From assembly GCA_947480015.1 (NCBI GenBank), contig CANKBS010000003.1, positions 1 to 64,000 on the forward strand: a stretch of 64,000 nt of DNA, in the 5' to 3' direction. The stretch comes from Sphingobacteriaceae bacterium (GTDB taxonomy: Bacteria > Bacteroidota > Bacteroidia > B-17B0 > Aurantibacillaceae). The position numbers were made by a program, and so were the translations under genes. The notes beneath the pieces were generated by a model, which had not been told where the DNA came from, made no database searches, and worked only from the letters and a program-made list of their open reading frames with translations. Numbering within the stretch: position 1 is the stretch's first letter; each line of letters starts with the position of its first letter. Positions 13,889-58,232 of this stretch are shown here, piece after piece.

Positions 13889-16800
13889 TTAAAACTCAAA
13901 TAATAAGCCAATGCGTATTTGACGCGGTGAATTATAATTTGAAGGGTTGTTCATTTTGATGCTATACATGTTTGAATAAGCAACCGCACTGTTTGCGATG
14001 GCCAAAGCTGATTGCGCTTGAGACGATGATAAGTATCCGTCATCATCAGCTACACCAGTAAAGTTATATACACCTAAAATGTTTTTATTATTAAATAAAT
14101 TCAGAACCTGCACGTAAACATTGAGGTTGGCATTTTTTTTGTTTTCTGAATCATCTTTACCCCATGTTAAAGGAATGTTTTTATCAAGTCTTAAATTTGT
14201 GCGGAAACTCCAAGGTTTTGAAGAGCCATTGATTTGACCATTAATACTTGAGCGTCCGTTACCCCCTTGGGTAGGAACCGGTGTATTCCAGCGGGTATAA
14301 GGCGTACCTGAACCTAATAGGAAGGTTAAGTTTAAACCAATATCTTCAAAAATTTGGATGGTTTTATCTTTTTTAGTTTTGAAGGTAGGGCCTTTGTAAT
14401 CTTTTTTACTTCCAAAACGATAATCGTATTGCATCACAAAATTATGACGTCTGTCGTAATCGAGTGGTTGTAATACGCGTAAGTTTGGTTGACCTGTAGA
14501 AGCCAAGTTAGCCCCGGCATTAGCATTCGAACCTGAACCATCAGCAAACTGTAAGGTGTAGTTTAAGTTGATACGTGAACCACCGGTGCGACGGAAGTCA
14601 AATACAAATGATAAACCTTTTACCGTTGCAAAGTCAATATTATCATATTGAATATAGTTTTTAGGATAAGCCCCTACCACTACTTTTTGATTAATGTAAT
14701 TACGCATTTCCTTATAGAAAGAAGTAATGGTTAAGGAAGCGTTTTTACGTTCGTTTAATACCTGTTGGAATCCTAATTCATAATCGATGGATTGCTGCGG
14801 TTTTAAATTTGGATTAGTGATGAAAGGTAACTGCGTAGAAGCATTCATGTAGTAAAAATCCATTGGGCTTAATTGATTACCGGCAGGACGTTGAATCAGT
14901 ACGTCGTAGTGCGCAAAGAAGTTAGCCACATCGGAAATAGGGAAAGAGAAAGCCAAACGAGGCTGTGGGTTGATGGCTGCCACATAATTGGTAAATGCCG
15001 AAGTTGATATTTTTTTGTCGTAATTAGCAATATCTTTATAATAAGGAATTGGACGTCCATCAGATGAAGCAATTAAGTTTGGGTCGGAAATCTCATTTCC
15101 TTGCGAATCGAACCATTTATCACCTTCGCGGAAACCTTTGATTGAAAGTGGTGATTTGCCACCACCCGGATTTTGAGCCACATAAACCGCGGCATCTTTT
15201 GAAATGCTAGATGGAATATTGTCGGTAAAACCAGCCGGAAGGTTTTCGAGAGAACCCAAATCACTTACTTTTGCAAGCTCATGTAAGGAATATTTATCTT
15301 TTAATACTTGCTGATTGGCATCGTATCTATCCACACGTAAACCCACTAAAAATTTAATATCCTTAAAGTCAAACTTATCCATTACGTAAACAGATGTATA
15401 AATAGGCTTAAATGACCCTACTGTAAACAGGTTTCTTCCTTTATCATCTTTACTATCAAGGAACGTTGCGATATCTGTTTTACCAGACAATCTTTTACCA
15501 TCATGGCTAAAACCGCTGTACGAAACTAAATTATCGGCACTTTGTGTACCTAACAAGTCAACTGCACTGAACATACTGATATTAAAGATTGATGGATCGA
15601 GAGCGTCGATATTCACAAAGCCAGTATAATTTTGAGGTAAGCCTAATTTCTCTAATAGCTTTTCTGAGAATTGCGTTTGTTTATCAGATTGATACAAATA
15701 ATCATAGTAATAATAAGGAATTAAACCTGAAAGTTCGGTGTTTAGAATTGGATGCGTTCTGTCAAGTTGTGTATTTGCATTTTGTTCTAATAGTCTCATA
15801 CGGGTCCAAAGAGAAGAGGCTCCAACGGAATAATAACTATTTACACGTTGGTCAAATTCCATACCGACTGTTACCGCATGTGATTTAATATCGGTGTTAA
15901 AACTAGCTGTTGCTCTATATTGTTGGCGAATTTGCTGGGTGTATGAACCAGGGTATGCACCAAAGTTGTTATAAAGACTATAAATACTTTGCGGACCATC
16001 CCCATTTCTTAAGCCGTTGTTTGCAGCAATATAATCCATACTTAAAAAACCAGGATTAGTTTGTGAGGCCAAATAACTTGTATAAATAGCAGCATCCGGG
16101 TTTAAGGTGCCTGGAGTAAAGACTACCGGTAACTCAGAACGACCGCGGTAGGTATAGGTATTAATGGCTTGTCCGTTTAAATCATATTTCTCAACAAAAT
16201 CATAATTATAAGCCCAATCTTTTTCGCGGAAAGTTCTATCAAATTTTCCAACATAACCATAATCAAAAAACTTGTCTTTATGCAATGCGCTTTGGTTCGT
16301 GGTTTTAATGTTTTCGTAACTCACCAAGAATTTGAAGAAAGAATTTGAGAGTAAGGATTGGGATTTGTTCTTGTCGCTGTTTGAGTTTCCAAATTTTTGT
16401 GTGATAGCTAGGTTGTAACGCTGGCTGTTAGTCGAATTTACCGAATTATTAACAGAGTTAAAAATCTGATTAGCGCCTGAACCACCGCGATGATCATCGC
16501 TATGTTCATAAAATGCACCGAATGAAATGTTTGTATTAGGTGTTGGAGCAAAATCGATTTTTCCGTTAATAGATAATAAGCGAGAAGAATTATTTGGACG
16601 AATCTTTTGTGCGGTCATATCATCTTTTGTCACAAACTCAGAAGACCTTACAAAACCGATACCTGAGCGCGAAGGCAATAATGGTTTGTCTTTAATTTCC
16701 TGTAATTTACTATCATTCAAAACATAAATAGGAACAAAAGAAGGATCTGATTCTTTAAGGTAATTTCCTTGTCCGGAAATAAAGAAACCTAAGATGGTAC

Positions 16801-17605
16801 GGCGCGTTGAATCACGTTTCTTGAAAAGTGGCCCACCCACGCTAAAACCGATTGAATTGTAACCAAATTTATCGGTTAACTGAGAACTGATTAACTCAAC
16901 CCCTCCAAAATATTTTGATTGCGGTCCACGTGTAGAAATTGAAACTGCGCCGGAAGTTAAATCGCCATAATTGGCAGGTACCCCGCCTGTAATCACGTTT
17001 AATTGTTCGATGGATTGTTGTGGTAAATTAGGTTTACCAAAAACCTTCACACCATCAACGAAATAGGTAGTACTGGTTTCGCGCCCGCCACGAACGTTAA
17101 TGGCTTTACCTTCATCTGATTGGTAAACACCTGCGGTGGTAGCAGCAACGGAGTTAACATCTTTAGTAGCTAAATTCTGATAATCTTCGCGGGTTACGGT
17201 AGCGCCTGATTTGGTATCCGGATCAATGAGTGGCACCTGATACGTCAATACTTCTACCTCGTCGAGTTTAACACCTTCGCCATTGGAGAGAGAGATGGTC
17301 ACATAGGCTGTCTTTCCTTCCCCTACTACCACATCCTTAATTTCTGCAGCTTGGTAACCCACATACACACCTTTCACCATGTATTTACCTGGCGAAAGTG
17401 GCTTTATAAAAGCCTCCCCATCCATGTTGGTTGTTGCTACACCTACCTGAACCCCATCCTTATAAGCCACGACATTGGCGAAAGGAATGGCCTCTTTGGT
17501 AGATTTGTCCTGCAAGACAACCTTAATCGCCCCGTTGTCATTCTGTGCCAGAGCAGAGAGGCTAACAAAAATGACCAATACAACTGCTAAATAAATTTTC
17601 TTCAT
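13889..17605 (-). CDS. TonB-dependent outer-membrane receptor with CarboxypepD_reg-like domain (1238 aa)
   Basis: Layout: signal peptide 1-20, CarboxypepD_reg-like beta-sandwich about 25-105 ('PFANVVAYKDGVQVG…SPGKYMVKGVYVGYQ'), plug domain about 120-240 ('INVRGGRETSTTYFVDGVKVFG', 'GGVPANYGDLTSGAVSISTRG'), then a long barrel ending in the terminal aromatic 'RIGLLFEF'. Such receptors import large ligands with TonB energy; no ligand can be read and no SusD-like partner follows. It is first in an operon with the 1501-residue protein (19-base gap) and the PorV-like protein. The repeated 'GGVPANYGDL' motif is close to that in the plug-only protein at 58233-59018. Confidence 0.9.
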   Translation of the reverse strand: MKKIYLAVVLVIFVSLSALAQNDNGAIKVVLQDKSTKEAIPFANVVAYKDGVQVGVATTNMDGEAFIKPLSPGKYMVKGVYVGYQAAEIKDVVVGEGKTAYVTISLSNGEGVKLDEVEVLTYQVPLIDPDTKSGATVTREDYQNLATKDVNSVAATTAGVYQSDEGKAINVRGGRETSTTYFVDGVKVFGKPNLPQQSIEQLNVITGGVPANYGDLTSGAVSISTRGPQSKYFGGVELISSQLTDKFGYNSIGFSVGGPLFKKRDSTRRTILGFFISGQGNYLKESDPSFVPIYVLNDSKLQEIKDKPLLPSRSGIGFVRSSEFVTKDDMTAQKIRPNNSSRLLSINGKIDFAPTPNTNISFGAFYEHSDDHRGGSGANQIFNSVNNSVNSTNSQRYNLAITQKFGNSNSDKNKSQSLLSNSFFKFLVSYENIKTTNQSALHKDKFFDYGYVGKFDRTFREKDWAYNYDFVEKYDLNGQAINTYTYRGRSELPVVFTPGTLNPDAAIYTSYLASQTNPGFLSMDYIAANNGLRNGDGPQSIYSLYNNFGAYPGSYTQQIRQQYRATASFNTDIKSHAVTVGMEFDQRVNSYYSVGASSLWTRMRLLEQNANTQLDRTHPILNTELSGLIPYYYYDYLYQSDKQTQFSEKLLEKLGLPQNYTGFVNIDALDPSIFNISMFSAVDLLGTQSADNLVSYSGFSHDGKRLSGKTDIATFLDSKDDKGRNLFTVGSFKPIYTSVYVMDKFDFKDIKFLVGLRVDRYDANQQVLKDKYSLHELAKVSDLGSLENLPAGFTDNIPSSISKDAAVYVAQNPGGGKSPLSIKGFREGDKWFDSQGNEISDPNLIASSDGRPIPYYKDIANYDKKISTSAFTNYVAAINPQPRLAFSFPISDVANFFAHYDVLIQRPAGNQLSPMDFYYMNASTQLPFITNPNLKPQQSIDYELGFQQVLNERKNASLTITSFYKEMRNYINQKVVVGAYPKNYIQYDNIDFATVKGLSFVFDFRRTGGSRINLNYTLQFADGSGSNANAGANLASTGQPNLRVLQPLDYDRRHNFVMQYDYRFGSKKDYKGPTFKTKKDKTIQIFEDIGLNLTFLLGSGTPYTRWNTPVPTQGGNGRSSINGQINGSSKPWSFRTNLRLDKNIPLTWGKDDSENKKNANLNVYVQVLNLFNNKNILGVYNFTGVADDDGYLSSSQAQSALAIANSAVAYSNMYSIKMNNPSNYNSPRQIRIGLLFEF

Positions 17606-58050: not shown

Positions 58051-58059
58051 ACCTGTTAT

Positions 58060-58075
58060 GTCTTATACTTAAGAC
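58060..58075. promoter_or_regulatory. Inverted repeat over the -10 region of the sigma-gene promoter
   Basis: GTCTTA (58060-58065), 4 bases, TAAGAC (58070-58075): a perfect 6-bp inverted repeat. One arm coincides with the predicted -10 and the other with the start-site region, 10 bases before the sigma ATG. It could be an operator or simply fall out of the -10 sequence. Confidence 0.4.
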
Positions 58076-58099
58076 GCGTAATTGAATAAATTCCATAAA
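58069..58099 (-). promoter_or_regulatory. ECF-type promoter of the sigma-factor operon
   Basis: On the minus strand TTTATGGAAT (58099-58090), 15 bases, TCTTAA (58074-58069), preceded by CG so that the -10 reads CGTCTTAA. GGAA at -35 and CGTC at -10 are the classic ECF pattern. The same two words with the same spacing occur on the plus strand at 58159-58189. The predicted start site is about 10-12 bases from the sigma ATG. Confidence 0.75.
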
Positions 58100-58158
58100 A
58101 ATAATGTAGCGTTCTAAAAAAATCATGTATGCCGTTAACAAAAGATAAAAGTAATTTA

Positions 58159-58189
58159 TTTATGGAATAAATCCCTGTATTCGTCTTAA
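58159..58189 (+). promoter_or_regulatory. ECF-type promoter of the plug-only gene
   Basis: TTTATGGAAT (58159-58168), 15 bases, TCTTAA (58184-58189), again with CG directly before (CGTCTTAA at 58182-58189). It is identical in both boxes and spacing to the element facing the sigma gene. No TAnnTTTG housekeeping box is seen here. The leader would be about 35-40 bases. Confidence 0.75.
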
Positions 58190-58232
58190 TAGCAAAACCG
58201 GTTCTAAGTACTAACCTTTAAAAACCAAAATC

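Follow-up and report, generated by a model that had tools for sequence, protein, structure and literature searches.

An ECF sigma gene and the gene of a TonB-receptor plug protein that lacks a beta-barrel diverge in the window (the whole 64,000-nucleotide stretch of Sphingobacteriaceae DNA analysed here), and two identical sites, facing outward, lie in the 182-bp gap (58051-58232) between them. This arrangement raises the questions of whether the sites are promoters, which sigma factor reads them, and which other genes carry them. Comparing related genomes, we consider it highly likely that the sites are genuine promoters read by the adjacent ECF sigma factor, which would drive a sigma-TPR operon on one side and the plug-only gene on the other.

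The sigma factor and its membrane-protein neighbour

The sigma protein matches Sigma70_r2 (2.4e-9) and Sigma70_r4_2 (2.9e-11) of Pfam and the sigma70-ECF family TIGR02937 (2.7e-21). It carries the sigma2 and sigma4 regions only, which is one of the hallmarks of ECF systems, together with AAC/CGT promoter boxes, a co-transcribed anti-sigma factor and autoregulation (PMC8103513).

The first 11 bp of the downstream gene overlap the end of the sigma gene, and in the other pairs checked its orthologue likewise follows sigma directly. Its product has a conserved N-terminus of ~45 aa, one transmembrane (TM) segment and a C-terminal TPR part. Judged by position and topology, this membrane protein is likely the anti-sigma factor. 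It might instead be another target or an accessory protein, with sigma controlled mainly by its own transcription; the absence of any Pfam or NCBIfam anti-sigma domain and the short stretch of only ~45 aa before the TM segment speak for such a role. However, the gene order is fixed in the pairs checked, the N-terminus is conserved, and a short cytoplasmic N-terminus followed by a TM segment and a periplasmic domain is also the layout of FecR-type and class I anti-sigma factors. We therefore regard the alternative as somewhat unlikely; it concerns one step and is compatible with the promoter reading. Our literature searches found no directly relevant paper on TPR anti-sigma factors or barrel-less plugs of Bacteroidota.

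Paired sites in the intergenic gap and in relatives

A sequence-only reading of this DNA had described two identical divergent sites at 58099-58069 (minus) and 58159-58189 (plus), and we find both exactly there. The sigma-side site reads TTTATGGAAT TTATTCAATTACG CGTCTTAA and ends 18 nt before the ATG; the plug-side site reads TTTATGGAAT AAATCCCTGTATT CGTCTTAA and ends 43 nt before the ATG. Their spacers are unrelated in sequence, as had been claimed against a simple duplication. The exact pattern TTTATGGAAT-N15-TCTTAA occurs twice in the window, against 0.00 expected from dinucleotide shuffles of the window (13-17 nt spacer). Allowing the same spacers, the whole 3.77-Mb genome holds three exact matches and no match to the reversed control pattern.

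Table 1. Features of the locus, with strand and the details that define them.
Feature	Coordinates	Strand	Details
Candidate anti-sigma factor, 329 aa	56475..57464	-	ORF, TPR hits, orthologue position, alignment
ECF sigma factor, 198 aa	57454..58050	-	region 2 (res. 31-96) and region 4 (res. 140-183) only
Putative sigma-TPR operon promoter, ECF-type	58069..58099	-	-35 TTTATGGAAT 58099-58090, N13, -10 CGTCTTAA 58076-58069
Putative plug-only gene promoter, ECF-type	58159..58189	+	-35 TTTATGGAAT 58159-58168, N13, -10 CGTCTTAA 58182-58189
Operator-like palindrome AACCGGTT	58196..58203		near predicted start of plug transcript
Plug-only protein, 261 aa	58233..59018	+	signal peptide, CarboxypepD_reg (res. 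30-106), TonB-receptor plug (res. 140-225)

The full element is TTTATGGAAW-N13-CGTCTTAW. Its boxes, GGAA at -35 and CGTC at -10, are both of ECF type (cf. PMC8103513), in line with the pattern named by the earlier reading. The -35 box reads GGAAT or GGAAA and not GGAAC, and thus agrees with the AAC type in its GGAA part only; the CGT of ECF target promoters is present as CGTC in the conserved core. The alignment of 39 promoters from orthologous pairs with a 13-nt spacer gave this core as TTTATGGAA[T/A]-N13-CGTCTTA[A/T], in which TGGAA and the G of CGTC are invariant. Two earlier descriptions needed refinement here. The CG noted before each TCTTAA is present, but it is not separate and belongs to the -10 box. 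The motif TTTATGGAAT-N15-TCTTAA is an exact match in the window, but neither the last T of TTTATGGAAT nor the last A of TCTTAA is fixed among relatives.

Sigma-factor orthologues with 48-68% identity and plug-only orthologues with 45-57% identity stand side by side and divergent in 19 further genus genomes, and G061 is another genome with this arrangement. Each of the 20 intergenic regions scored (one genus, this genome included) has one motif facing each gene, and the spacer is nearly always 13 nt; all genomes are drafts from uncultured bacteria, and since many orthologues come from close relatives these counts are not independent events. The two-way score exceeded all 300 dinucleotide shuffles in 19 of the 20 regions. 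The exception is G027, whose plug promoter has a 14-nt spacer and is under-scored by the one-spacer scan. Two more distant loci (L212 and L213, 40-41% plug identity) also keep both motifs. The earlier reading had named loss of the paired motif between orthologous genes as a refutation; the pair is kept in 20/20 regions and at both distant loci. Its prediction of autoregulation likewise gains comparative support from the motif before the sigma gene in 20/20 pairs, and its proposal of the plug-only gene as a direct target gains it from the retained pair and from exact sites that occur only together with the locus.

The -35 boxes are separated by 59 bp here (58100-58158), and by 7-18 bp, mostly 9, in all 19 other pairs of the genus. 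The back-to-back promoter arrangement of the relatives is thus relaxed in this genome.

Just behind the plug promoter lies a short palindrome (Table 1); in relatives the corresponding position holds AAGCGCTT, CAGCGCTG or GAACGTTC. The CpG stays at the centre and the outer letters change symmetrically, which suggests a putative binding site for a dimeric regulator. A palindrome of half-length at least 3 is found in 17 of the 20 plug leaders (shuffles: mean 5.2, maximum 14), 15 of these 17 with the CpG centre at the shared place, and in only 4/20 leaders on the sigma side. LacI-family operators often have a central CpG.

The motif across genomes and the choice of sigma factor

A genome scan for the motif had been proposed as a way to list the regulon, and of the three exact matches the third (G000:C18:45884-45914) is separated by 7 nt from the ATG of the gene for a 440-aa secreted protein with a CarboxypepD_reg_2 domain. 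The gene usually lies downstream of aroE. It is found in every locus-bearing genome of the genus but G017, and no close relative was found in the genus genomes without the locus; its absence from G017 counts against our preferred explanation. At least 19 genomes of the genus have a recognisable motif upstream of the gene, on its coding strand and with the same spacer (in G014 a 186-aa gene intervenes). The motif usually stands 5-8 nt from the ATG, which starts a signal peptide, as seen at G000:C18:45884-45922 (L136) and its orthologues. If transcription begins at the normal ECF position, this short distance would make the mRNA probably leaderless or nearly so, and conserved as such. In Flavobacterium psychrophilum leaderless mRNAs amount to ~5.5% (PMC9723704). 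The structure model of the 440-aa protein (pLDDT 72, pTM 0.47) matches many beta-propellers at low TM-scores, and we tentatively liken it to a beta-propeller.

Rarer sites, in L145 (G010:C53) and L150 (G030), precede a ~283-aa Cys-rich protein that is apparently membrane-bound. Its cysteines are in the N-terminus, it has an apparent membrane segment and seemingly a CarboxypepD_reg-like region; G010 has two tandem copies of the gene. Since the plug-only, 440-aa and ~283-aa proteins carry CarboxypepD_reg or a like region, the predicted regulon has CarboxypepD_reg envelope proteins as its theme. The variant TATGGAAW-N13-CATCTTA was counted 11 times in 7 genomes of the genus, each of which has this sigma factor, against one hit for the reversed control (loci L302-L312; G014, G034, G025, G021, G008, G026, G061). 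Copies stand in front of genes for Cys-rich single-TM proteins and within or ahead of ExbB/ExbD/TonB-like operons, and one is beside another sigma gene; the variant could mark a sub-class of this regulon or be the promoter of a paralogue. Loosening the pattern in this genome to three mismatches gave 18 sites against 13 for the reversed control, that is, hardly more. A two-mismatch site at C11:60348 points into antisense ORFs and was therefore taken as chance. We also considered control of type IX secretion (T9SS), and no T9SS gene has any of the three exact sites in front of it.

Does the adjacent sigma factor read the motif? Among 40 genomes of the genus, 24 have the locus, 21 of them complete; the fragments in G010, G025 and G062 were taken as assembly gaps because the pieces sit at contig ends. 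At least one exact TTATGGAAW-N13-CGTCTTA is present in 22 of the 24 and in none of the 16 genomes without the locus (Fisher p = 2.4e-9), a test that counts the paired sites themselves. The more independent part is the exact sites outside the pair, and these too occur only in locus-bearing genomes. In G054 and G056, from other families, the spacer of the best matches at the corresponding genes is 14 nt long, the weaker ones not being individually significant; this shift fits sites that co-evolve with one sigma factor.

A paralogous ECF sigma factor of the same genome could read the elements in place of the adjacent one. The genome yields 12 sigma matches to this query, and ECF regulons can overlap (PMC9723704). 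However, the exact sites are gone from all 16 genus genomes that lack this sigma factor, although these still encode other ECF sigmas, several including the nearest paralogue (36-40%). The persisting sigmas are therefore unlikely readers of the motif. Adjacency and two-way conservation also point to self-control, and we consider a paralogous reader quite improbable.

The repeated element might instead be an operator for a DNA-binding regulator and not a promoter. The TTTATGGAA boxes of relatives face away from each other at 7-18 bp and so form one large inverted repeat. On the other hand, both halves keep the fixed 13-nt spacer and the ECF letters at -35 and -10, the single copies at the third target always face their gene, most of them stopping 5-8 nt short of the ATG, and the halves stand 59 bp apart here, so the close inverted arrangement is dispensable. 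An operator is accordingly very improbable. Chance, or recent copying of one promoter, could yield two identical 10-mers in one gap but is already contradicted by the unrelated spacers and by conservation in 20 pairs at 45-68% protein identity, with scores never matched by shuffles in 19/20, and we give it practically no weight. Reading by the adjacent sigma factor thus remains our explanation: comparative evidence supports the paired promoters, the third target and a link with this sigma factor, and from these we infer direct control of the targets.

The plug-only protein and the proposed circuit

The plug-only protein matches CarboxypepD_reg (5.5e-11) and Plug (0.0018, below Pfam's cut-off), ends in a charged C-terminal helix and has no beta-barrel, so the plug-then-barrel order of a TonB-dependent receptor is absent from it. 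Orthologues of the same genus with a complete end have 250-286 aa and all stop soon after the plug, so that the missing barrel is a family trait and not an assembly error. The nearest full-length relatives are receptors of ~1240 aa, such as the 1238-aa TonB-dependent receptor at 13889-17605 (minus strand), which shares the order CarboxypepD_reg then Plug and is ~30% identical to the plug-only protein over its N-terminal 230 residues. The receptor continues into a barrel, whereas the complete plug-only orthologues do not. Relatives of the receptor's length were seen in most genomes searched. The orthologue alignment has the consensus NTLxTVxVTA between the CarboxypepD_reg and plug domains, which we take to resemble a Ton box. 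The AlphaFold2 model (pLDDT 76, pTM 0.41) retrieved mainly CarboxypepD/transthyretin-like domains in Foldseek, a result that at this pTM is uninformative on the plug part.

A surplus of the free FecA signalling domain inhibits fec induction (PMC9249621), which suggests that the plug-only protein could feed back on its system. It might even be a dedicated periplasmic regulator that resets or tunes sigma by acting on TonB, on a barrel or on the TPR domain of the candidate anti-sigma factor, but we think this unlikely.

Very probably, the locus forms a gene circuit that activates itself and controls a small and defined set of targets. In the following model we infer that a signal exists, where transcription starts, and what the TPR protein (as anti-sigma factor) and the plug-only protein do. 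At rest the TPR protein would hold sigma, with its short N-terminus in the cytoplasm and its TPR domain in the periplasm. An envelope signal acting on the periplasmic TPR part would free sigma, and freed sigma with RNA polymerase would transcribe its own operon (sigma and TPR), giving positive autoregulation. The same holoenzyme would transcribe the plug-only gene and the distant gene for the secreted ~440-aa CarboxypepD_reg protein. The products would be surface or periplasmic proteins built on the CarboxypepD_reg domain.

The circuit resembles systems of the RpoE-RseA and SigW-RsiW type in its sigma2+sigma4 protein, AAC-type -35 and CGT-containing -10 (PMC8103513), in the predicted positive autoregulation and in the membrane protein gene directly downstream. 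It differs in an anti-sigma candidate that has TPRs and no known anti-sigma domain, and in its targets, which are envelope proteins with CarboxypepD_reg and include a barrel-less plug protein. With FecI-FecR-FecA it shares an ECF sigma, a single-TM protein and a TonB-receptor-related target adjoining the sigma gene. Autoregulation of sigma is predicted here, whereas fecIR is transcribed by sigma70 (PMC9249621). Pfam and NCBIfam matched no FecR domain in the membrane protein, which gave TPR-type matches instead, and neither an STN domain nor a barrel was matched in the plug-only protein, which has CarboxypepD_reg and Plug. Among Bacteroidota, F. psychrophilum has a CGT -10 box in the promoters that were assigned to ECF sigmas, and its SM6 genes include an ECF/anti-sigma operon (PMC9723704). 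The sites thus resemble the SM6 promoters (ECF, T9SS genes) and those of the PorXY-SigP system of P. gingivalis in being Bacteroidota ECF promoters with a CGT -10, but both those regulons hold T9SS components and the three exact sites here do not precede T9SS genes.

The type of circuit is ordinary; what is new is the regulon, with a stand-alone CarboxypepD_reg-plug protein as a core target. The sequence-only reading was without the third target, the candidate TPR anti-sigma factor, the correct core and the conserved palindrome. To our knowledge, few ECF regulons are known in uncultured Bacteroidota, and for one uncharacterised ECF system of this group the present analysis defines the promoter sequence, names the sigma gene and provides a small set of targets. 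The stand-alone CarboxypepD_reg-plug gene is a conserved gene and not a broken receptor, and this makes the function of barrel-less plugs testable.
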